The position numbers were made by a program, and so were the translations under genes. The notes under the pieces were generated by a model. It was given only the letters and a program-made list of their open reading frames with translations. It did not search any database and was not told the DNA's origin. Shown here piece after piece: positions 6,065 to 20,521 of a stretch of 64,000 nucleotides of DNA (its first letter is position 1; the number at the start of each line of letters is the position of its first letter). Source of the DNA: Rhizocola hellebori (lineage in GTDB: Bacteria; Actinomycetota; Actinomycetes; Mycobacteriales; Micromonosporaceae). Location: positions 372,001 through 436,000 of the forward strand of contig NZ_BONY01000001.1 in assembly GCF_016862955.1 (NCBI RefSeq). The letters are read 5' to 3'.

Positions 6065-6230
6065 GACGCGATGATACCGAGAGCCACACGATCAACTGCG
6101 CCGCAAGGGTTTTGCCCGCTATCCCCGGTCGATGTGATCTTGCGAGGACAGGATGAGGACACGGCGGGGACGATCAGCGTCAGTCTCAGCTTTGCCAAAT
6201 CAACGCCATTCAGTCCCGAAAGGAGACCTA

Positions 6231-7754
6231 ATGCGACGCAGAGCTGTGCTGGCAACCTTGGCAACGGTTGCCTCGACGTTGTCCATCGTGGGCATCGGCA
6301 CGGGGGCCGCAGCCGTGCCGCCACCGTGTGAGAACACGCAGCACTACGACCAGAGCTACGCCTACTACGGTCCGCCCAAATGGGCGCCCGACGCCGAACA
6401 GACCCACCTGAAGAACATCGACTTTCCGACCCCAACAGCGATCTCCGGATCGGTGTCCTCGACCCATCACTGGGGCATCTCCTGGAGCCACGACGCGCGG
6501 ATCGGCTACACCGGCGACGTGGATGCCGGGGGGCGCATCAAGATCATCGAACTGGCCGCAAGCGTGCGGACCGAAATCGAGCTGAAGTTCCACATCGATG
6601 TCGTCGACAAGTTCGAAACCACCACGACGCATTCGACCAGCCCGGTGTTGGCCCAGGGCGAGGGCGTGTACTTCAAGGCGGGCTCCGTCATCCAGACGAT
6701 CCGCCGAACAGAGGATTACAAAGACGAATACTGCAATGTGGGTACCAACGTCGACTACTTCAATATGGGCGGTAACGCCGCCTACCTGACAAAGGATCTC
6801 GGCACCTTTGCCGACCCGGCCGCGGGGCGGGAAGCCATCGGCATCCAAAACCTCGGCTGGGCCTCGGTCAGCCCGCCCGCCTGCTCCTCGGCTGCGGCCG
6901 TAACCGCAAGCGCGGCAACGGAATCGGTCTCGGTCGCCGCGTCGTGCATGCCTGGTGACGCTGACGTGGAGACCGCCTGGTACGGGCCGGGCAGCGGCGG
7001 CGGCGGAGGCGGCGGAGGTGGGGGCGGCACCTGGAGCGGCGCCCGCAACGACCTCAACAGCGACGGGCTCGCCGATCTGCTGGCGCTTTACAACGATTAC
7101 ACGCTGGCGTGGTACCCGGGCAAGGGCGACGGCAACTTCTGGTCGGCGCGCACCATGGGCCCGGCCGGGTTCCTTCAGGTCGCCAAGGCCGATCTCAACA
7201 GCGACGGCAAGAAGGACATGCTCGCCCTCTACACCGACTACACACTTGCCTGGTACCCGGGCAAGGGCGATGGCACCTTCTGGTCTGCCCGCGTCATCGG
7301 GCCGGCCGGGTTCAAGCTGATGTCGCTGGCCGACCTTGATAGCGACGGCAAGGTGGACATGCTCGCCCTCTACACCGACAACACGCTGGCCTGGTACCCG
7401 GGCAAGGGCGATGGCACCTTCTGGTCTGCCCGCGTCATCGGGCCGGCCGGGTTCAAGCTCATGTCCCTGGCCGACCTCAACGGCGACGCCAAGGCCGACA
7501 TGCTCGCGCTCTACGACGACAACACGCTCGCCTGGTACCCGGGCAAGGGCGACGGCACCTTCTGGTCAGCGCGAGTCATCGGGCCGGCCGGATTCAAGCT
7601 CATGTCCCTGGCCGACCTCAACGGCGACGCCAAGGCCGACATGCTGGCCCTCTACAACGACGACACCCTGGCCTGGTACCCGGGCAAGGGCGACGGCACC
7701 TTCTGGTCAGCGCGAGTCATCGGCCCAGCCGGATTCCGGCTGATGGCCCTGTAG
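6231..7754 (+). CDS. Secreted protein with FG-GAP/VCBS-like repeats
   Basis: A 507-residue exported protein. The ATG follows GAAAGGAGACCTA and is followed by a signal peptide ending near AAAVPPP. Residues about 30-245 form an unrecognised domain with several Cys. A Gly-only linker (11 Gly) then leads to five tandem repeats of 47 residues, each with a Ca-binding-like DLNSDGxxDxLALY motif followed by TLAWYPGKGDGxFWSAR and GPAGF. Such repeats form beta-propeller blades in surface proteins and often bind ligands or cells. Five repeats alone make an incomplete seven-blade propeller, so the domain may be open or may oligomerise. Confidence 0.85.
   Translation: MRRRAVLATLATVASTLSIVGIGTGAAAVPPPCENTQHYDQSYAYYGPPKWAPDAEQTHLKNIDFPTPTAISGSVSSTHHWGISWSHDARIGYTGDVDAGGRIKIIELAASVRTEIELKFHIDVVDKFETTTTHSTSPVLAQGEGVYFKAGSVIQTIRRTEDYKDEYCNVGTNVDYFNMGGNAAYLTKDLGTFADPAAGREAIGIQNLGWASVSPPACSSAAAVTASAATESVSVAASCMPGDADVETAWYGPGSGGGGGGGGGGGTWSGARNDLNSDGLADLLALYNDYTLAWYPGKGDGNFWSARTMGPAGFLQVAKADLNSDGKKDMLALYTDYTLAWYPGKGDGTFWSARVIGPAGFKLMSLADLDSDGKVDMLALYTDNTLAWYPGKGDGTFWSARVIGPAGFKLMSLADLNGDAKADMLALYDDNTLAWYPGKGDGTFWSARVIGPAGFKLMSLADLNGDAKADMLALYNDDTLAWYPGKGDGTFWSARVIGPAGFRLMAL
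7053..7751 (+). repeat. Five tandem 141-bp repeats inside the VCBS-like gene
   Basis: Each unit encodes 47 residues and the middle units are almost identical at DNA level (for example the GGTACCCGGGCAAGGGCGA block near 7112, 7253, 7394, 7535 and 7676). The fifth unit ends a few residues short. The near identity shows recent unit duplication or gene conversion. Confidence 0.85.
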
Positions 7755-7850: not shown

Positions 7851-10800
7851 TCAGCTGACGATGAGCGTGTCAGTGCCGCTTCCCGCGAGATAGGTGAGGC
7901 TGGGGTCGTAGGTCACCGTGCCGTTTGTTTGCACAGTGAAGTAGAAGGTGGCGTTGGCGGTGACGATCCGGTGCCGCCCAGGGGCCAGGGTGAAGGTGTG
8001 CGGGGTCCGGCTGGGTAGGACGGACCCGATCGCGGTGAGCTCGAAGGTCGGGGCCGATTGCCTCGTTGCGTCGATGGTTATCAAGTAGCCGTGGGCCACC
8101 AGCGTGTCGCCGTTGGCGGACAGGAACGCCAAGCCGGAGCTGACGGTGCCGTCTGCCCTGACGGTGAAATCATGGATGTTGAGGCTGGCCGTGGTGACTT
8201 GGTGGCCTCCAGGGAACACTCTGATTGTCGCTACCGGATCCTTGGGGATGATGCTGCTGATTCCGCCCACGCCAAATTTGCTATAGGTCAGCTCGCGCAT
8301 GTCGACATGGATTGTCAGGCCGTGCCCTACCACGGTGTTGGATCCGCTGACGGTCAGGAACGGCTCTGATTGGGTGGTGGTGACTGAGCCGTCGGGGTGG
8401 ACGGTGTAGTCGAGAGTGGTCGTGAAGCCGGTGACCTGGTGTCGTCCAGGAAAGACGGAGATGGTCTTTATGCTGCTGGTCGGGATGATGCTGCTGTATC
8501 CAGGCACGCCGAAGTAGGCGTAGGACAGCTGACGCATGTCCAGGTTGACGCGATGGCCGCGTACGGTCAGGGTAGCCGTGCCTCGACCATCCAAATAGGA
8601 CGCATCTTCGTCATATTGAATTGTACCGGCGGTGGTCACGCTGAAGGCGAAGGTCTTGCCACCGACCGAAAGCTGGTAGGCGGCAGGCGCAAGCGACATG
8701 GCCTGGGGCTGGCGGGAGCTGAGCGCGTTGGCCACTCCGCTGAGGGTGAACGACGAGGACATGGTGAGGTCGGTCAAGTCGATCCCGATGGGAAAAGTCC
8801 CCGCCGGCGGCGTAGTGGTTGGGCAGCAGGTCGACCCGGTGGTGGATGGAGAAGGCCCCGGCGCGGCGGCAACAGCTTGGGTGGAGGCGATAGGGTCAGC
8901 CGAAGGCGAAGCTGAAGACTGGGGCGAATTTGTTGCTGTGGTGGTGGTGCTGGCACTGGCCGACGGTGCCGCCTGATAGGTGACGACTGGGCCGTTGCCG
9001 ATTAGCACGAAAGCCGAGACTACTGCCAGCAGAAGGACGCCCCCGCCGCGGGCCGCCTGCCCGAGCGCCGGGCTGTGCTGGAGGACGGTGACTGGCGCCG
9101 TGGGGATTCCCGGTCTGATGGTGAGGGCCTTGTGCCACAGCGGCGGCGCAGCCGTCGAAGCGACGGCCGGGGTGGCAAGGCGAGCCATGGCGGCCGCTGA
9201 CAGCGCTTCACTCGGACCTTTTCCGCCACCGGAACGTCCCCCGGTAAGGATTCTCTCGAACCAGCCGAACATCTCCTCGCGAAGCTGGCGCGGGCGTGAG
9301 CGGTGAGGTCCCAGCTGCGTGACCCAAAAGCCTGTCCCGATGCCGGGAAGCAGATGGCGTATAGGCGCCAGTGGCCAATGCTTGCGGAATCGGCCTCGCA
9401 TACCGACCGAGCGGGAAGTGTCGGGAGCCGCAGCCGCGGTCTGCAGCCGCTGCAGGTTCTCGGATTCGTTGCGAAGGCGCTTGAGAGATATGGGATAGTC
9501 GCCGGCCGCCTGATGGTAAAGGTCGACGGCGCTGGCCTGAGCCTCGTAGGCGTTCTGGAACTGATGAGCGTCGACAAAGCACAGCGCCAGGTTCGCCAGG
9601 CCGTCCGCCATTTCCACCATTTCGGCCGGGGAGACGGGCTCTGCGTTGCGCTCATGCTGAATCAGGATCGCCTGCTGCGCAGCCGCAACCGCGTCGTCGT
9701 GGCGATGGGCTGTGAGCAGAGCGTAGGAAAGGTTGCCGTATGCCGCGGCGAGGTCGCGCCGCAGGTGCGGGTGCGTCACCGCCGCGCGCTCATAAAGCGT
9801 CACTGCTTCGCGGGCGCTGTCGACCGCGCCCGCCCGTGATGCCTCAATCAGCAAAAGCGCTTTGACGGTAAGGCAGGCCGCAAGGTCCACGCCGTCGGCG
9901 GCTTCCGCTGGCTCGCGGCGGTGAGCGGCCAGTGCCTCTTCGATGGCGGCTAGGCCGTCGACTGGTCTTCTGCCCGCGGCCGCGCATATCGCCAGCGTCT
10001 GCAGCGCGTTCGCGAAGTGTGACCGGTACCCGTCAAAATCTAATGTGGACAGAGCTCGAAAGGTTTCCGCCGCGCTACCCGCCAGCCGGATGGCGAGGCT
10101 CACCGACTCGCTGCCGCCCGGCTGATCGAGTTGGTGGGTGGCCAGACAGGCCGCCAGACGCAGCCGCGCCGAGGCCGTGCCTAAACGATAGACGAGAGGC
10201 TGCTGCGTGCTCAGCTCGTTCATCAACTCGATCGCGGTCGCCGCCGACTCGATCGCTTCGCCGATGCGCCCGCTGGCCCGCAGGGCGTCGGACAGGTTTC
10301 CCCATGCCAGCGCCAGCCGATAGGTGTAGTCGGCGCTGGTGGCGGCCTGGCGGGTGATGGCCTCGATGACCTCGCGGGCGTCCCCGATCGCCTCCTGCGC
10401 TTGACCCGCGTCGATCTGGCATGCGCACAGGTTCACCAGCGCAGCCACCAGAGCGGGAAGATGAAGTCTTTCGTCCATATCGGACAGACGCCGACGGATC
10501 TGCGCCGCCCGCGTGAACGCCGCGATCGCTTCTTCCATCTGACGGTGTTCGGTCAGCCTGCTGCCCAGGTTGTTCCATGCCGAGGCGTGTGTCGCGGCCT
10601 CACCAGGATCCCAATCGCCAGATTCGCTTATGCCGCACGGAACGTGTACGAGCAGACCGGTCGCCTGCCGGGCGGCCGTCAATGCCTCGCCGTGGTGACC
10701 CGCCTCGGACAGCCGCCGGCTGAGGGTGATGAGGTCATCTATATAGGCCTTGCCCGGACTGTCGGATGGCACAGCGAGTCGTCTCGACACCTGCACGGCC

Positions 10801-12356
10801 ACCTGTCTGAGGCGGGGCAACAGCTGGTCGGCCAGAAGCTGGTCAACGGCCCTGACCACGTGCAGCTCGGTGGCCGGGTCGCGAATGGCTTCCAGCATCA
10901 AGGCCGTGAAGCGCTCGTGGTGGTCGGCGGCTACCAGCGCGGGAAGGTAGGTGGCAGGGCTCATGCGCACCAGGGCCGCCACCGCATGGCCGAGCCGTCT
11001 CGCACCCAGTTGGTGCACGGTGTCGGCGGTGGGTGCGGACAGCGCGCGCAGAAGCGTCGCGATGACATGACCGGCCTGCGCGGCGCTGCTGCCGCGGGTG
11101 AGGTTGGTGATATGGACGGCCCAATCTTCATCGCTGCGCTTATCCATCGCCCCCTTCAGAAGGTGCAGATCGCAGAGCCGATCCGGCTTGGGCGCTTGCC
11201 AGATCGACACGTCGCCTGGGTACATGCCCGCCAGCGTGCGGACCAGAGCGTCGACCGTCGCTGCGGGAACGTCCGCCAGCTGCGGCAGGGCGGCCATCGC
11301 GCGAGCGGCCTCACGGCTGTGCTGAAACGGGAGCAGGCACACGACATCGAGGAGCCGCATCGGCTCCGGTCCGAGATCGATGTCGCCTGCCGCCGCGGCG
11401 AGAGCCAGCCTCAGCTGGCGGTGCTCGTGGGCTTCCAGCAAGTGCTCAATCGGGTCCATGGCGCGCGTCGCCGTGGTCGGCTCGATCTGGTCAAGCACAC
11501 TGATGAGTGCGTCGGCGTAAAGGTCCAATGTGGTCTGGAAAGGTCCCGGAGGCTCCCGCGGTAACGCGAGCTCGTTGGCGAGCAAGCCTTCAGCGATAGC
11601 TTTAGCGGCAAACGATTCGGCCGCAGCACGCCACAGGAGTCCCGTCCTCTGGTCAAGCGACTGACCCGACGCGGTCAGCGACTCGGGCAGCGAGGCAAGC
11701 CAACGAACCTGGGGATCGACCAGTCCAAGTCCGCTCCTGTGCCTGGTCACCAATTCGCTCCACCAACGGCCGGTCTGACGCGCCAGGAGCAGCAGCCGCA
11801 CCGGCGACACCTCACGGTCCACACCTGCCACGACGTCAAGCAACGCGGCCGCAAGCTCGGCGTTCGCGTCGGCGTAGTCGACCACAAGCAGCGCACCCTG
11901 CACGTCGGGCAGCGTGGCCGAGTGTGCCGCCGCCGCGAGCAGCCGCTCGCCTTCGGTTGACCTCACCACACCCGCCAGCCATCCTCTGTCGCGAAGACGC
12001 TGGCAAAGCTGCAAAGCGAGCACGGTCTTGCCCTGACCGCCCGGCCCGCAGACGAGCTGGGCGGCTGCCGCCGGACCGTTGACACACCAACCGAAAAGCT
12101 CGTCGGTTTCGGGCCGCTCGACCACATCGAACACCATTGCGGCCGGATCCAGCCATGTGCTCAACCTGTTGGCAGGAGGCGGACTCGCCGGGCCGAACAA
12201 CCATGCCGCAGCCTCATCACGGTCTGCCGGGGGCACCGTCGGCACCGGCAGGGCCGCGTTGTTGATGCCAAAGATGTTCACCCCACCGCGGATGGTGACA
12301 TCGCGGTGGAACGCGATCTCCACGGCCTGGAAGAGCTGATCGCTGCCATCATCCAT
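7851..12356 (-). CDS. STAND NTPase with TPRs, membrane span and external beta repeats
   Basis: The product has 1501 residues. Residues about 17-33 (DVTIRGGVNIFGINN) repeat a motif found at the C-terminus of the cyclase-like protein upstream. Residues 104-111 (GPGGQGKT) are a Walker A and LLVVDYADA near 156 a Walker B, as in STAND/NACHT-type switches. From about 500 to 1000 there are tetratricopeptide-like helix pairs (ASAWNNLGSRL, AYGNLSYALLTAHRHDDAVAAA). A membrane span lies near 1106-1121, followed by a Ser/Thr/Pro linker. The last about 315 residues hold four beta-rich repeats of about 80 residues. It overlaps the cyclase-like gene by 8 bp, so the two are translationally coupled. STAND proteins are signal-triggered switches; here the external repeats could sense a signal across the membrane. 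That role is inferred. Confidence 0.85.
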   Translation of the reverse strand: MDDGSDQLFQAVEIAFHRDVTIRGGVNIFGINNAALPVPTVPPADRDEAAAWLFGPASPPPANRLSTWLDPAAMVFDVVERPETDELFGWCVNGPAAAAQLVCGPGGQGKTVLALQLCQRLRDRGWLAGVVRSTEGERLLAAAAHSATLPDVQGALLVVDYADANAELAAALLDVVAGVDREVSPVRLLLLARQTGRWWSELVTRHRSGLGLVDPQVRWLASLPESLTASGQSLDQRTGLLWRAAAESFAAKAIAEGLLANELALPREPPGPFQTTLDLYADALISVLDQIEPTTATRAMDPIEHLLEAHEHRQLRLALAAAAGDIDLGPEPMRLLDVVCLLPFQHSREAARAMAALPQLADVPAATVDALVRTLAGMYPGDVSIWQAPKPDRLCDLHLLKGAMDKRSDEDWAVHITNLTRGSSAAQAGHVIATLLRALSAPTADTVHQLGARRLGHAVAALVRMSPATYLPALVAADHHERFTALMLEAIRDPATELHVVRAVDQLLADQLLPRLRQVAVQVSRRLAVPSDSPGKAYIDDLITLSRRLSEAGHHGEALTAARQATGLLVHVPCGISESGDWDPGEAATHASAWNNLGSRLTEHRQMEEAIAAFTRAAQIRRRLSDMDERLHLPALVAALVNLCACQIDAGQAQEAIGDAREVIEAITRQAATSADYTYRLALAWGNLSDALRASGRIGEAIESAATAIELMNELSTQQPLVYRLGTASARLRLAACLATHQLDQPGGSESVSLAIRLAGSAAETFRALSTLDFDGYRSHFANALQTLAICAAAGRRPVDGLAAIEEALAAHRREPAEAADGVDLAACLTVKALLLIEASRAGAVDSAREAVTLYERAAVTHPHLRRDLAAAYGNLSYALLTAHRHDDAVAAAQQAILIQHERNAEPVSPAEMVEMADGLANLALCFVDAHQFQNAYEAQASAVDLYHQAAGDYPISLKRLRNESENLQRLQTAAAAPDTSRSVGMRGRFRKHWPLAPIRHLLPGIGTGFWVTQLGPHRSRPRQLREEMFGWFERILTGGRSGGGKGPSEALSAAAMARLATPAVASTAAPPLWHKALTIRPGIPTAPVTVLQHSPALGQAARGGGVLLLAVVSAFVLIGNGPVVTYQAAPSASASTTTTATNSPQSSASPSADPIASTQAVAAAPGPSPSTTGSTCCPTTTPPAGTFPIGIDLTDLTMSSSFTLSGVANALSSRQPQAMSLAPAAYQLSVGGKTFAFSVTTAGTIQYDEDASYLDGRGTATLTVRGHRVNLDMRQLSYAYFGVPGYSSIIPTSSIKTISVFPGRHQVTGFTTTLDYTVHPDGSVTTTQSEPFLTVSGSNTVVGHGLTIHVDMRELTYSKFGVGGISSIIPKDPVATIRVFPGGHQVTTASLNIHDFTVRADGTVSSGLAFLSANGDTLVAHGYLITIDATRQSAPTFELTAIGSVLPSRTPHTFTLAPGRHRIVTANATFYFTVQTNGTVTYDPSLTYLAGSGTDTLIVS

Positions 12357-13080
12357 TGCGAATGCCGAACACGTTGGACCCGCCGTTGATCGTCAACTCC
12401 CCCATGACTTTGGTGGTCACGCTTTGCGGGGCGCCTGCGGTGGTCGCGCCCGCCCGGTCAGGTGCGCCCTCCGGCACGACCAGACTCAGGCGATGAGTGT
12501 CAGTGCCCGGCAGCCACAGCCAGGCCTTCTCATCGAACTCTTTCTCGGTGACCTGGACCGCGCGGAACCACTCTGGCTCGACATCGGACAATCGGCTGCC
12601 GATCCAATCACGAAAAACCACCTGCGACACAATGACCGCCAGCACAGCGTCGTCAGCCAATTCCAGCGCCCTTTTGACGACAGCGCTGTTGACGAGGCGG
12701 CTCACCCCCACCACGGCCTGACCCGAATATCCGTTGGCGGCCGGCTGCACCGGCCCATCGTCGATGGCGAGCCGGAGCCTGATCCGGTCCCGGTGGTCGC
12801 GTGAAGCGTTGAGGTTGCGCAACATAATGTCCAGCTGTTGGCTGAACGCTCCAGCCACTCGAGGCAGCATTTCCTTCGCGGGTACCAGACACAGCTCCTC
12901 GTCGCCCTTGGCCTGACGCAACCAGCAGGTGCGATCCAGGCCCGCGGCTTCGGCCGCTGCCTCCAGCGAAGCGAGCAGCTCCTGCTGAATACGCGCCTGC
13001 CGCGGATCGTCGTTGCGGCCGTAGCCGACCACATCGACCGCAAGACACAGGTACCGATCCACGCTGGCTGGATCGACCAT
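12349..13080 (-). CDS. Class III nucleotide-cyclase-like protein
   Basis: The 243-residue protein resembles a cyclase homology domain. LCLAVDVVGYG (Asp16) and QAKGDEELCLVP (Asp60) match the two metal-binding aspartates of class III cyclases. GQAVVGVSRLVN (Arg128) matches the G..V..ASRL segment, although the usual transition-state Asn is Gly125. The last residues (GELTINGGSNVFGIRNG) repeat the motif at the start of the STAND protein. The ATG at 13080 follows GGAAGGGGTGGCA; an upstream in-frame ATG at 13131 was judged less likely. Pycsar cyclases are relatives that make cCMP or cUMP. The nearby PycTM-like and Crp/Fnr genes support a cyclic-nucleotide product, but activity is not proven because the Asn is missing. 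Confidence 0.65.
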   Translation of the reverse strand: MVDPASVDRYLCLAVDVVGYGRNDDPRQARIQQELLASLEAAAEAAGLDRTCWLRQAKGDEELCLVPAKEMLPRVAGAFSQQLDIMLRNLNASRDHRDRIRLRLAIDDGPVQPAANGYSGQAVVGVSRLVNSAVVKRALELADDAVLAVIVSQVVFRDWIGSRLSDVEPEWFRAVQVTEKEFDEKAWLWLPGTDTHRLSLVVPEGAPDRAGATTAGAPQSVTTKVMGELTINGGSNVFGIRNG

Positions 13081-13160
13081 TGCCACCCCTTCCCCTGGCC
13101 GTCCACCTTGCCCGAAAGCAAGACTTGCCATTCCGTACAGTTACGGGATCCGCAAAAGCA

Positions 13161-13844
13161 TTAGCTGTTTCCCGTGTCGGCCCTGCGCCACAGCTCCTCC
13201 GGGTCGCTTACCACGATGCGGCGGTAGCCGCGGTGCAGGATCTTGTCTCGGGCCAAGGCCCGCAACGTCTTTTCCACCGTTGCCAGCCCGACGCCGGCCA
13301 GCGAGGCGATCTCGCTTTGTGTCAATGGCACCGCGAGTTGCAGACCCTCCGCGGCCGGTCGACCGTACATGTCGCTCAATGCCACCAAAACTCGGCACAC
13401 GCGCGAGGCAGCGTCGGTGGCGGCGAAGTCAATTCGCCTTTGATTGGCCCAGCGCAACCGATCCGCCAGCAGGCATGCCAGCGCGAACGACACCTCCGCC
13501 TGGCTGCACAAAAACGCGCGCAGGTCAGCGGCAGAAATCGCATGCGCCATGGTCGCCGAGCACGTCGTCACCGAGGCCGAACGTCCCGCGGCAGAAAGCA
13601 CTCCCATCTCCCCGACCAGATCACCGCCCGCCCGGATGGCCAGCAGCGGTTCATGTCCGCTGTCGTTACCATGAACCTTCACCAGACCATCGATCAAAAG
13701 AAATGCGTGCCCGGACGGCTCACCCAGCCGCATCATGCAACGGCCGGCCGGAAACCGCGCCTTCGTCCCCAACGACAGCATCGCCGCCCGCGCCGGCTCA
13801 GCCAGCCGACCGAGCAAACTCACCGCGGGCCAAGTGACCGCCAC
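13161..13844 (-). CDS. Crp/Fnr-family cyclic-nucleotide-binding regulator
   Basis: About 227 residues. The N-terminal half is a cyclic-nucleotide-binding beta barrel (LGRLAEPARAAMLSLG, then AGGDLVGEMGVLS, the phosphate-binding-cassette region). The C-terminal part is a Crp-type winged helix (VPLTQSEIASLAGVGLATVEKTLRAL). It lacks the Cys set of FNR iron-sulfur proteins. The GTG at 13844 is chosen because the open frame further upstream overlaps the PycTM-like gene and reads poorly; the true start could differ by some codons. It lies 56 bp behind the effector gene and 80 bp before the cyclase-like gene, all leftward. It probably reads the cyclic nucleotide made by the neighbour and changes transcription, by inference. 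Confidence 0.85.
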   Translation of the reverse strand: MAVTWPAVSLLGRLAEPARAAMLSLGTKARFPAGRCMMRLGEPSGHAFLLIDGLVKVHGNDSGHEPLLAIRAGGDLVGEMGVLSAAGRSASVTTCSATMAHAISAADLRAFLCSQAEVSFALACLLADRLRWANQRRIDFAATDAASRVCRVLVALSDMYGRPAAEGLQLAVPLTQSEIASLAGVGLATVEKTLRALARDKILHRGYRRIVVSDPEELWRRADTGNS

Positions 13845-13900
13845 ATCATCAATATATCGCGATAGCTGATCCGCCAAAGTCGCCGATCGGACGAGACCTG

Positions 13901-14380
13901 TCAGCCAGAAAACGGGGCAGTGACGAACAAAAACGTCAGTATCACCACCGCGACGATGGTGAGCAGCACCGATCCCTGCAGCATCCGGTACTTCCTCCAG
14001 TTGATGCGGCTCAGCGAGACCAGCTGATGAGCCGTCATCACCTGCCTCTCCTGCGCGGTGAGGCTGCGGAGCTGCCCGGCCAGCGCCTGCGGCTCCCACA
14101 GCCGCAGGTGCCCAAAGAAAATCATATGATTCCGGTACTGGGCCACGTGTCTACGGGCCGAGCCGAGCATCGGCATAATGACCAACGCCGCCAGACAGGT
14201 CGCCACAAGAAGCAGGCCAACCCCGACCACCCCCACCTTGGCCGGCCACGGCGACCTCGACTGAAGCAGGCGTTCATATCCGCTGAGCGACAAAACAAGC
14301 GCGCCGCCCTGCAACGTCAACAGCACCGAGGCCTTCAGATCGGCCCTGTTGGCCCAAGACTCCATCAGCGCGTGAGTCAT
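13901..14380 (-). CDS. Pycsar-type membrane effector (PycTM-like)
   Basis: About 159 residues with three hydrophobic helices (near residues 16-34, 50-75 and 134-155). Family signatures recognised are NRADLKASVLLTLQGGAL at the first helix, VIMPMLG after the second, NHMIFFGHL in the cytoplasmic part, and LSRINWRKYRMLQGSVLL before the last helix. In Pycsar anti-phage systems such proteins disrupt the membrane after binding a cyclic pyrimidine nucleotide. The ATG at 14380 has GGAG nine bases upstream and gives the usual size; the frame is open to 14524, so a longer product is possible. It is the first gene of the leftward four-gene group with the Crp/Fnr, cyclase-like and STAND genes. Confidence 0.75.
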   Translation of the reverse strand: MTHALMESWANRADLKASVLLTLQGGALVLSLSGYERLLQSRSPWPAKVGVVGVGLLLVATCLAALVIMPMLGSARRHVAQYRNHMIFFGHLRLWEPQALAGQLRSLTAQERQVMTAHQLVSLSRINWRKYRMLQGSVLLTIVAVVILTFLFVTAPFSG

Positions 14381-14641
14381 CGACGCAAGCTCCAGCCGAC
14401 CCACCGGCTGCTGCCCACCACCGCTCGACCGCCGCCGCCCCAGATACCGCACCACACCCATAACCACCGTCCACCGTCCGCGTCCGACAACCCACCCACA
14501 AGAATCGACCTCATGGCTGAGCAAACCCCGTCAGCCGACGGATTGTGAACCCCACCACCGCCTCGACGAGATCTGGCCGAGTTAGTCAAGCCCCCGGCCG
14601 GAGGAGTTCATACATCGACGGGAGTCACCAGAATGTGACGG

Positions 14642-17682: not shown

Positions 17683-20088
17683 TCACGATTTTCGATCGTC
17701 CTGCTCGCCCTGGGGCGTCTGGTGGGGGTGGTGGAATTTGACCCGGACGGCGTGGGCGTCGGGGTGCTCGAGTTGCTCGAGAATGGCCAGGGCTTGTTGC
17801 CAGGTGTCGCGAGCCGTCTGGAGGTTGCCGGTGGTGTGGTGGGTGTCGCCGAGGTGGGTGAGGATGGTCGCTTGGTGGTAGCGGTCGCCGAGGTCCCGGT
17901 AAAGGTCGAGGGCGTGCTGGTAGCAGGTGATGGCCTGGTCGTGGTGGCCGAGGTGGTGGTGGGCGTAGCCGAGGCTGTCCCAGACGGCGGCCTGCCCGTG
18001 GCGGTCGTCGAGTTCCTGGTGCAGGGGCAGGGCCTGCTGGCAGTGGGTGAGGGTCTGCTGGTGGTCGCCGAGCAGGGCGTGGTACCAGCCGATGTTGTTG
18101 AGGGCGTGGGCCTGCCCGCGCCGGTGGCCAGCGGCCCGGAACAGATCGAGGGCCTGCCGCGTGTGGTGCAGGGCGTCGGCGGGGCGGCCGCGCCGCTCCC
18201 ACACCTGGCCGAGGTTGAGATGGGTATGGCCCTGCCCGGCCAGGTCTCCGGCTTGGGCGGTCAGGTCGAGGGCGTGGTGCTGCTGGGTGTGGGCGTCGTC
18301 GAGGCGGCCCAGCCGGATGTAGGAGGCTGCCAGACGGCGGTGGGCGCGGGCTTGTGCGGCGGGGTCGGCCAGACGCCCTGCGGCGGCCACCGCCGCCTGC
18401 CCGGCGGCGACCTGGTCGTGCCAGTGCCCCCGCCGGCCGAGGAAGTCGTCGAGGGTCCAAGCCAGCTGCCAAGTGTGGGTGTCGAACCCGATGACGACGG
18501 CGTGATCGACAGCGGCCAGTAGCACCGGACGCTCATCGGTGAACCATTCCACGGCCTGCTGGTAGTCGGTGGGGTGTTCCGGGATTACGCCGAGCTGGGG
18601 CGGGGTGAGCGTGATCGGGTCGCGGGCCGGTTGCAGCAGCCGGACGGCAGTGTGGGCGGTGTGCAGGTAGTGGTCCAGCAACCGGTGCGTAGCGGCGTGG
18701 CGCTGCTGGTCGAGGTCGAGGCGGTGGGCCTGTTCGGCGGCGTAGGCACGTAGCAAGTCGTGGAAGGTGTAACGGCCCGAGACGCTCTCGACGAGCAGGC
18801 TCGCCCGGGTCAGCTCACCCAGCAGCGCCCGCGCCTCGGGCAGCGGAACGGCGGCGAGGCTGGCCGCCGCCGCCGCGGAGGTATCCGGGCCGGGGTGCAG
18901 GCCCAGCAGCCGAAACAACCGCGCCGCCGCCGGGGTCAGGGCCTCGTAGGACCAGGACAACACCGCCCTTACGTCAGTGGCCGGGTCATCGGTGCTCAGT
19001 GTGTCGAGCCGCCCGCCGCTGCTGTTGTCGTGTAATCCATCGGCCAGGGCGTGCAGGGGCAGGTGGGATTGGTTGGCGGCGCGGGCGGCCACGATGGCCA
19101 ACGCTAGGGGCAGCCGCGCACACGCGGTGATGATCTGCTCGACCGCGCCGGGCTCGGCGGCGACCCGGGCGGGGCCTAGACGGCGGGTCAGCAGCTGGCG
19201 CGTCTCGTCCCGAGTGAACAGGTCCAAGGTGATCGGATGGGCGCCGTCAGCGGCGACGAGCCCGGAAAGCTGATTGCGGCTGGTCACCAGGACCAGGCAA
19301 GTCGCCGCTCCGGGTAGCAGCGGGCGCACCTGGACGCTGTCGCGGGCGTTGTCCAACACGATCAGCATCCGCCGCCCTGCCAATTCACTGCGGTATAGGG
19401 CGGCCTGCGCATCCAGATCCTGCGGGATCCGCTGGGGTGGCACCTGCAGGGCGTCCAGGAACCGGCGCACCGCCTCGGCCGGGTCCATCACCGACCCTGC
19501 CGGGTCGAACCCGCGTAGGTTCACAAACAGCTGCCCGTCCGGGAACTCCTCGGCCACCTGATGCGCCCAGTACACCGCCAACGCTGTTTTGCCTACCCCG
19601 GCCGTACCGCCGATCGCCGAAATCATCACCGCGGCGCCCGCCACTGGCTGATTTTTCTGATCACGCAGCAGGCCGGTCAGCCAGGCCACTTCGCCAGCCC
19701 GGCCAGCGAAAAGGGGTACCGCCGCAGGCAACTGCCGCGGCACCACCCGCGCGGCCGCGCCCACCGACTCCCCGCCGCCGACGATGTCCACAGCACTGGG
19801 CACGTGCCGCGCCGCGGCCTCAGCCGACGCAGGTATCCTGAGCTGGCGGTACAACGCCCACGAGCCCAGCATCGCCGCGACCGCCAAGGCAGGCACCGCC
19901 ACGGGCAGTTCATCTTGGAGCAGCCCCGCCGCCCCCGCCACAAACGTCGCCAAGCCGGTCGACGCCACCACGAACACCTCCGGCCGCAACCCACCCCCGC
20001 GGCGATGTGGACCCACGGCGGCCTCCAGAATGTCGTGACAGCTTGCCCCACACAGTGTCCAGCCCTTCACCGCGTCCAGCCAGGCCAT
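17683..20088 (-). CDS. Membrane-anchored NB-ARC/TPR protein
   Basis: The 801-residue product starts at the ATG at 20088. Two hydrophobic segments lie at about residues 36-58 and 61-80. A NB-ARC ATPase follows, with Walker A GTAGVGKT (161-168), MLIVLDNA as Walker B, LVTSRN as the sensor strand, and a GLHPG-containing winged-helix region. From about residue 560 there are six or more TPR units (AHRRLAASYIRLGRLDDA, HALNNIGWYHALLGDHQQ). Such proteins are signal-triggered STAND switches, in some cases for immunity or regulation. No effector or DNA-binding domain is fused. The GC-rich DNA gives long antisense open frames over the TPR part, which are not genes. Confidence 0.85.
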   Translation of the reverse strand: MAWLDAVKGWTLCGASCHDILEAAVGPHRRGGGLRPEVFVVASTGLATFVAGAAGLLQDELPVAVPALAVAAMLGSWALYRQLRIPASAEAAARHVPSAVDIVGGGESVGAAARVVPRQLPAAVPLFAGRAGEVAWLTGLLRDQKNQPVAGAAVMISAIGGTAGVGKTALAVYWAHQVAEEFPDGQLFVNLRGFDPAGSVMDPAEAVRRFLDALQVPPQRIPQDLDAQAALYRSELAGRRMLIVLDNARDSVQVRPLLPGAATCLVLVTSRNQLSGLVAADGAHPITLDLFTRDETRQLLTRRLGPARVAAEPGAVEQIITACARLPLALAIVAARAANQSHLPLHALADGLHDNSSGGRLDTLSTDDPATDVRAVLSWSYEALTPAAARLFRLLGLHPGPDTSAAAAASLAAVPLPEARALLGELTRASLLVESVSGRYTFHDLLRAYAAEQAHRLDLDQQRHAATHRLLDHYLHTAHTAVRLLQPARDPITLTPPQLGVIPEHPTDYQQAVEWFTDERPVLLAAVDHAVVIGFDTHTWQLAWTLDDFLGRRGHWHDQVAAGQAAVAAAGRLADPAAQARAHRRLAASYIRLGRLDDAHTQQHHALDLTAQAGDLAGQGHTHLNLGQVWERRGRPADALHHTRQALDLFRAAGHRRGQAHALNNIGWYHALLGDHQQTLTHCQQALPLHQELDDRHGQAAVWDSLGYAHHHLGHHDQAITCYQHALDLYRDLGDRYHQATILTHLGDTHHTTGNLQTARDTWQQALAILEQLEHPDAHAVRVKFHHPHQTPQGEQDDRKS

Positions 20089-20521
20089 CCGCCTACAACC
20101 AGCCGACAGGTACCTCCGCGGTTGCGGGGTCGCGTGCTGTTCAATCGATCTCGCACCTATGCCGACTCGGCTATGTCGATCTCGGCCTCTCAACTAGATG
20201 CCTCAATCGGACGCGCATTCACTTGATATCACAAGGGAACGGTGACCGGTGCGCGGCCATCGTCGCTGCGCGCCGACCTCTTTTCCGGTGCTGTCTTTGA
20301 AGGAACGGACAGCCCTGCTGGCCACTCACCGCAGCAGGCAAGGTCTCCTACCTCATCAGCCTTCCGTCCCGCGCTCGTGGCGCAAACAACAACATCGCCA
20401 GAACCGAGTGACGTTTCAGGCCTTCTCCGCAGGTGTTTCCGGGCGGCTTCAGCGCACGATGCCAGCGTTGTGGGCAGAGGCGAGACAGGCTCGCCTCAGG
20501 CTAACAACGGAAAGAGGCAAC
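20089..20521. other. Gene-free interval (433 bp)
   Basis: No convincing coding signal is seen. It is the upstream region for both the NB-ARC gene (leftward) and a secreted protein gene (rightward). The rightward frame of that secreted gene stays open upstream, but without a ribosome site. No clear operator palindromes were noticed. Confidence 0.5.

Follow-up and report, generated by a model that had tools for sequence, protein, structure and literature searches.

Matched tags on a cyclase-like protein and a neighbouring STAND receptor of Rhizocola hellebori suggest a homotypic, BASS-like coupling

Introduction

Bacterial amyloid signalling sequences (BASS), whose founding paper is reportedly that of Dyrka et al. 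in 2020, are short matched motifs borne by an NLR and by the effector of a neighbouring gene; one of their families, BASS3, has a RHIM-like core, (I/V)Q(I/V)G..N. A like arrangement was found in a stretch of 64,000 nucleotides of the Rhizocola hellebori genome (contig NZ_BONY01000001.1, positions 372,001 to 436,000, hereafter the window), in which the C-terminus of a cyclase-like protein and the N-terminal region of the STAND-TPR protein encoded by the overlapping gene carry similar short motifs, referred to here as tags. Judged from the sequences, these two tags are probably matched homotypic motifs which couple the STAND receptor to the cyclase-like effector of the neighbouring gene, and the best reading of the pair, made by analogy, is that its role is that of BASS.

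The accessible parts of three publications on BASS describe motifs of 20-40 residues, report that some pairs were missed by family profiles and found solely through aligning neighbours, and name BELL, CHAT and TIR as effectors (PMC7889193, PMC8086366, PMC12261475), whereas the effector in the window is a cyclase-like enzyme. One of these sources, in the part available, also reports that the BASS3 peptide VDLRDAKGVQVGDGNVQINRF is amyloid-forming (PMC8086366). Ten BASS families have been published, and the window tag is likened to them by role.

The window also resembles Pycsar (PycC with PycTM or PycTIR) in that a gene for a cyclase of predicted class III fold lies near genes for a PycTM-family protein and a cyclic nucleotide monophosphate (cNMP)-binding protein, so that a receptor of the PycTM or PycTIR kind adjoins the cyclase. 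To this layout the window adds a CRP-type regulator, as well as a STAND receptor whose tag matches that of the cyclase. A third comparison is with the EAD modules, which the accessible parts of two papers describe as small folded domains, homotypic between a core NTPase and its effector, with the copies of one neighbourhood being most alike and cNMP cyclases among the coupled domains (PMC7159879, PMC8195603). Finally, relatives of the window cyclase exist in which the same cyclase family is joined to STAND-type NTPases in one chain (loci L140-L142), whereas the window encodes two separate proteins with matched tags.

The matched tag pair

The cyclase-like protein ends in TINGGSNVFGIRNG (aa 247-260), and the STAND protein has TIRGGVNIFGINNA near its N-terminus (aa 21-34). 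Nine of the 14 positions are identical, and the match is part of a longer, gapless local alignment of 24 residues, QSVTTKVMGELTINGGSNVFGIRN against QAVEIAFHRDVTIRGGVNIFGINN, with a BLOSUM62 score of 55. The first-pass annotation had noted about nine identities over fourteen between the end of the cyclase-like protein and the start of the STAND protein, across an 8-bp gene overlap, all of which is borne out here, with a likeness that exceeds chance. When the first 150 residues of the STAND protein were shuffled and compared with the last 14 of the cyclase, none of 20,000 shuffles reached 9/14, and four control comparisons within the operon gave z values of -0.8 to 0.7, as against 7.1 for the cyclase-STAND pair. 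When both whole proteins were shuffled and the position was left free, 7 of 300 pairs did reach 9/14, showing that the location of the match matters. A chance likeness of two glycine-rich, low-complexity stretches could draw on this last figure, but the position-fixed shuffles, the controls and the re-pairing test over 25 clusters described below leave it scarcely credible.

By reading, the window tags share the pattern T-I-(N/R)-G-G-x-N. A candidate assignment to BASS3/RHIM was rejected, as only G..N is common to the core and the tag, again judged by reading. The arrangement itself is that of BASS, i.e., a like short motif at the C-terminus of an effector and the N-terminus of an NLR-type protein, encoded by adjacent or overlapping genes. 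The same codon is used for four of the nine identical residues and a different one for five, and the DNA identity is 26/42.

Concerted change of the tags in related loci

When 298 genomes of the order were searched, 60 of them, the host included, had relatives of the window cyclase at E ≤ 1e-5. A scan of named genomes gave 97 relatives, the best 80 loci of which (L031-L110) were taken. With a profile built from downstream neighbours, partners were detected at 53 of these 80 loci, directly behind the matched cyclase in 52 cases; in L047 the partner sits behind a second, tandem cyclase. L037, from Actinophytocola xanthii, encodes a STAND protein of the window type that the partner profile missed and was added by position. 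The resulting pair table comprises 54 rows, one for the window and the others for 53 loci. Most partners are ~700 aa long with a P-loop-like stretch; among those tested with Pfam, L032 and L065, both of the FGI type described below, gave sub-threshold nSTAND3 matches only, and L052 gave HEAT_2 over the cut-off.

Forty-one of the 54 neighbour pairs beat all 200 shuffles. For the re-pairing test, one pair was taken per tail cluster (25 clusters). The mean z was 5.92 with the own partner and 0.65 with the others, and none of 100,000 re-pairings reached the observed sum; the own partner was the top match in 14 of the 25 rows and likewise in 14 of the 25 columns, and the window's pair came first both ways. 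The two systems of Allosalinactinospora lopnorensis (L077 and L081) had own z values of 8.0 and 11.9 and crossed values of 0 and -1, thus keeping two distinct tag pairs in one species. A control comparison over 13 loci, of the cyclase head with the tail of the upstream gene, gave a mean z of -0.19 and a maximum of 1.46, while the cyclase tail compared with the partner head in 16 loci gave a mean z of 6.04. The first-pass annotation had proposed to look for conservation and co-variation of the motif in homologues, and had named a lack of conservation as a sign against its reading. This sign is seen in part only: the exact letters are not conserved, but the matching between neighbours is, and the tags tend to change in step with their own partner. 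Several tag types occur across actinobacteria, each common to the two neighbours: GDITVEGQNAVGPGAMAIGSV is paired with GDMLVRGQNATGHGALAIGTV in L052, HVRADKVVGGDEITY with RVRAQKVVGGDEITY in L076, and THAPAQFGNHNTM with THGPAQFGSHNTM in L085.

The window pair was placed in a wider type, termed FGI, which reads by eye xVINNFxGxVxAxxxxFGI. All 52 cyclases have the FG glycine of the tag, and at least 90% of 36 partners retain it. Counted from the V to this glycine, the spacing in cyclase and partner agrees for 17 of 18 FGI-type pairs (9/9 in fourteen pairs, 7/7 in L048 and L069, 11/11 in the window; permutation p 0.0012, with hand-read spacings). L037 is of the same STAND type as the window (nSTAND_NTPase5 33.1 bits, TPR_12 22.2, both sub-threshold), and its tail, VTATFLDSVDVNGGVIGIRNS, and head, VDAVFHGPVDLNGGVIGI, match the window's with z values of 6.6 (tails) and 5.6 (heads). 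A tag profile that included the two window rows ranked the window tags first and second (E 0.003 and 0.015), and its further matches in the host genome were weak only (E 2.6 to 7.5).

A number of observations weigh against such a coupling, or against its generality. A 24-row tag profile without the window rows missed the window tags at E ≤ 10, so that the window's place in the FGI type rests on L037 and on reading. Compared with the heads of seven further partners, that of the window STAND protein shows no likeness (z between -1.0 and 1.2), and in L058 the spacing is unequal (9 vs 7). Among the 25 cluster representatives, z is negative in L033, L058 and L099; it is weak (1.1 to 2.8) in L102, L032, L064, L035 and L031. 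L056, one of the 41 high-scoring pairs, owes its score to an alignment other than that of the tag, as its start is misplaced. The second, tandem cyclase of L047 has no match to its partner (z 0.2), and 27 of the 80 loci yielded no pair. Ten Saccharothrix cyclase loci (in the L038-L054 range) share the tail V(I/V)QA(G/A)RDA..RNDQRGSHFGP, and a scan for a downstream open reading frame (ORF) with a like pattern found one only at L049, with none at the other nine; these ten loci were left out of the pair counts, and the partner of these cyclases may be encoded elsewhere. Finally, the pair statistics treat the loci without modelling their relatedness. As a separate observation, the tail of the second L047 cyclase (3-753 after the stop of the first) looks FGI-like by eye.

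Tag swapping and fusions

Relatives of the window STAND protein are few. In the family, 6 of 300 genomes had a match at E ≤ 1e-30 (the host included), giving seven other places, and a class-wide search of 394 genomes at the same threshold returned the window's own protein only. In five of the seven places (L112, L125, L126, L127 in its second half only, and L128), local alignment showed a tag of the style GDRSIG..VVITGDGNVV common to the STAND relative and a small upstream ORF; L129 had no shared tag by the same method. In L130 a single ORF has two successive GDGNVV-type copies, a membrane-type stretch and a STAND part, which looks like an effector-STAND fusion retaining both tags. Three of the upstream proteins were tested and gave nothing above the Pfam cut-offs; several are membrane-like by eye. 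The STAND type of the window thus bears a different tag when its neighbour is different. The ITGDGNVV-type tag resembles the published BASS3 peptide, with L112, L125 and L128 reading TGDGNVV. By eye, the STAND relatives of L117-L121 have an N-terminal stretch of trypsin type, as though the effector had been supplied by fusion.

Fusions were also sought among the cyclases. Six of the seven cyclase matches with open frames of at least 1,000 aa were fetched, three of which are fusions: in L140 and L141 the cyclase domain is joined to NB-ARC and TPR, and in L142 to NACHT with a sub-threshold LRR match. The cyclase profile finds these three at E 2.7e-39 or better in a search of three sequences. The other long-ORF loci showed no such fusion (L137 had no Pfam match, L138 had no ORF after the filter, and the single ORF of L139 was left out of the Pfam scan). 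With fusions in three of six long ORFs, sensor and cyclase appear to be coupled either by fusion or by tag.

For the shared motif, the first-pass annotation had offered two readings, one as a homotypic docking peptide and the other as a scar left by gene splitting. The former is well supported by the sequences. The latter, in which the likeness would be a functionless remnant of splitting or of an internal duplication, might appeal to the cyclase-NTPase fusions and to the two tag copies in the single ORF of L130; a mere scar should drift apart, yet the two copies change in concert over 25 clusters, five of the nine identical residues use different codons, and the window's STAND type bears another tag beside another neighbour protein elsewhere, all of which makes a scar very unlikely.

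Predicted fold of the cyclase-like protein and position of the tags

The cyclase-like protein had no match in Pfam (up to E 1), PADLOC or NCBIfam, and with no Pfam match it could not be assigned to the DUF2652 cyclase-like family (PMC4886424, seen in part). It was also rejected as a PycC, with 0 PADLOC families and no PycC among the eight solved sequences that it matches at E ≤ 1. An AlphaFold model (52-row alignment, mean predicted local distance difference test score (pLDDT) 84.6) is good for about aa 21-220, and a Foldseek search with it returned class III cyclases (3mr7, E 4.8e-8, and also CyaC), with PycC absent among the 50 matches listed; the predicted model thus has a class III nucleotidyl cyclase fold. 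A profile match to the mycobacterial cyclase Ma1120 (E 6e-4) was also obtained. Of the 52 cyclase sequences, all have Asp77 and at least 90% have Asp33; these two residues we take to be the metal-binding Asp of class III cyclases. Arg145 is invariant in the same alignment. Class III cyclases have Lys and Asn at the positions that correspond, by offset, to Gln73 and Val141, and it is this Asn that acts with an Arg on the transition state. The protein is therefore described as a predicted nucleotide-cyclase-like enzyme of putative substrate and activity.

The residues that select a pyrimidine, as given in the accessible part of one study, are F100, R142 and Q144 of EaPycC and F60, K104 and F109 of AnPycC (PMC11224242). 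The window residues at those offsets are Ala31, Gln73, Lys75 and Leu80, placed by offset from the metal Asp only.

The tag of the cyclase lies in aa 221-260, where the pLDDT is about 52-68, outside the cyclase fold. In a model of the L036 partner (36 rows), the tag has a pLDDT of 35-47, comprising a low-confidence helix and two short strands (61-63 and 66-68), and the domain is modelled well from about residue 81. Hence, in both models the tags sit outside the confidently modelled domains, and burial in a fold, which the first-pass annotation had named as a sign against docking, is not what is predicted. With ~24 residues in low-confidence tails of these two models, the shared module also differs from an EAD-type folded domain, and this candidate was rejected.

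How the tags would bind each other is less certain than the coupling itself. An amyloid form of the coupling is a tentative proposal, to which we give a little less than an even chance. The same coupling could instead be achieved by docking of soluble β-strands or hairpins at fixed stoichiometry rather than by amyloid-type templating, an alternative of which we are likewise not quite half persuaded. The window tag has no RHIM tetrad and was missed by the out-of-sample profile, amyloid-type aggregation is here deduced from sequence, and the L036 model places two short low-confidence strands in the tag, all of which would suit docking; on the other hand, the near-symmetric sequence and spacing on both sides suit self-stacking more than a two-sided interface, and the tag found in relatives of this STAND type resembles the amyloid-forming BASS3 peptide.

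The operon and its other genes

The two tagged proteins are encoded by the last two genes of a four-gene operon on the minus strand of the 10.77-Mb host genome, in the transcription order PycTM-family gene, CRP-type regulator, cyclase-like gene, STAND-TPR gene (Table 1). The first-pass annotation mentioned neither the CRP-type gene, nor the PycTM gene, nor the BASS principle in this finding.

Table 1. Coordinates of the operon genes and of the tags in the window.
Feature	Position	Strand	Remarks
PycTM-family membrane protein	13901..14524	-	207 aa as called; start uncertain
CRP-type cNMP-binding transcription regulator	13161..13877	-	start codon uncertain; frame open to 14099
Cyclase-like gene	12349..13131	-	260 aa; class III nucleotidyl cyclase fold predicted; C-terminal tail bears tag
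STAND-TPR gene, NLR-like receptor	7851..12356	-	1501 aa; nSTAND_NTPase5 and TPR_2 matches
Overlap of cyclase and STAND genes	12349..12356	-	8 bp, counting stop codon
Cyclase-side tag QSVTTKVMGELTINGGSNVFGIRN(G)	12352..12426	-	aa 236-260; 14-residue core 12352-12393
STAND-side tag QAVEIAFHRDVTIRGGVNIFGINN(A)	12255..12329	-	aa 10-34; core 12255-12296

In Pfam, the STAND protein scores 33.8 bits for nSTAND_NTPase5 (cut-off 34) and 26.7 bits for TPR_2 (cut-off 27), both marginally sub-threshold, and on these marginal scores it has the STAND NTPase and repeats of a BASS-type NLR partner; the tag precedes the NTPase match, which starts at aa 93. The regulator matches cNMP_binding (41.8 bits, cut-off 27.5) and HTH_Crp_2 (51 bits, cut-off 27), as well as the PADLOC PycTIR profile across its cNMP-binding part (E 7.2e-12). 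The membrane protein matches PF18967 PycTM (59.5 bits, cut-off 27.2) and PADLOC PycTM (E 7.7e-25), and it is the sole PycTM of its genome.

With an iterated CRP profile, a gene was detected at 67 of the 80 related loci; in 63 cases it lies upstream of the cyclase end, at a distance of up to ~3.1 kb and in either orientation, these being raw counts uncorrected for background. All four CRP genes tested with Pfam (L032, L052, L076, L081) have cNMP_binding and HTH_Crp_2. PycTM-like ORFs occur in 12 of the 80 loci, ten of which were confirmed by Pfam (not L085 and L096). Eighteen genomes, ten of them chosen for a PycTM-like ORF at the locus, were searched whole, and PycTM was present in 13. In seven of the ten (L032, L033, L037, L042, L047, L051, L076) it is the only PycTM of the genome, at coordinates fitting the locus; the L069 genome has one additional PycTM, the L085 genome has one copy that is unplaced relative to the locus, and the whole L096 genome has none. 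The genomes of L031, L036 and L065 have a PycTM away from the locus, and whole-genome searches of L052, L058, L088 and L090 found none. In the genome shared by L077 and L081, the sole PycTM forms the C-terminal portion of the L081 partner (8781-10418; PycTM domain at aa 431-531, 51.9 bits), which therefore has tag, partner NTPase and PycTM in one chain.

Some further features of the region were observed. The STAND region of aa 1100-1501 (7854-9059, minus strand) begins with a hydrophobic stretch of mean hydropathy 1.68 (aa 1100-1118), followed by a Ser/Thr/Pro-rich linker and, by eye, several β-rich repeats. Such a layout may mean that the receptor is anchored in the membrane, with its C-terminal domain outside. 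The STAND protein of L037 has, by eye, a similar linker and a milder hydrophobic stretch. A second STAND-type gene (17683-20193, minus strand; NB-ARC 41.8 bits and TPR repeats) lies ~3 kb upstream of the operon. Tail to tail with the STAND gene, 6153-7754 (plus strand) encodes near-identical repeats seen by eye, ADMLALY.D.TLAWYPGKGDGTFWSARVIGPAGFKLMSLADL.

Proposed mechanism

The coupling of receptor and cyclase is proposed from the matched pair, its concerted change, its location outside the modelled domains, the operon and the fusions in relatives. Upon a trigger, the STAND ATPase would oligomerise, as its family suggests. The clustered N-terminal tags may then stack in register with the like tags on the cyclase tails, consistent with the concerted sequence and spacing, and the crowding of the cyclase would switch on cyclic-nucleotide synthesis. 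Crowding would be activating because the active site of class III cyclases forms at the dimer interface. The cyclic nucleotide, to judge by gene content, would act via the CRP-type regulator and probably also via the PycTM protein. As it holds a CRP-type regulator and the only PycTM of the genome, the operon looks like an NLR-gated, Pycsar-like pathway. The complete proposal, that a prion-like tag of an undescribed family lets the STAND protein switch on the cyclase, whose product then drives the CRP-type switch and the PycTM effector, is possible but rather doubtful as a whole.

Implications

In titles and the beginnings of abstracts, no report was met that describes a cyclase as the partner of such a tag, most subscription journals being outside the search; one article on TIR domains names both "pycsar" and "amyloid" (PMC13142454). 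As the trigger of Pycsar cyclases, the study that lists the pyrimidine-selecting residues suggests that parts of the phage bind directly, or that a condition such as pH changes (PMC11224242). Gene order, matched tags and fusions in the present loci suggest that a PycTM-linked cyclase is switched on by a receptor of NLR type. If this is true, a trigger would be supplied for Pycsar-type cyclases, and amyloid-type NLR signalling would reach from membrane-killing proteins to second-messenger enzymes. Matched tag pairs would then offer ready-made coupling parts that are insulated from one another, and the swapping of tags among effectors and STAND families would give actinobacteria a large set of mutually insulated circuits.

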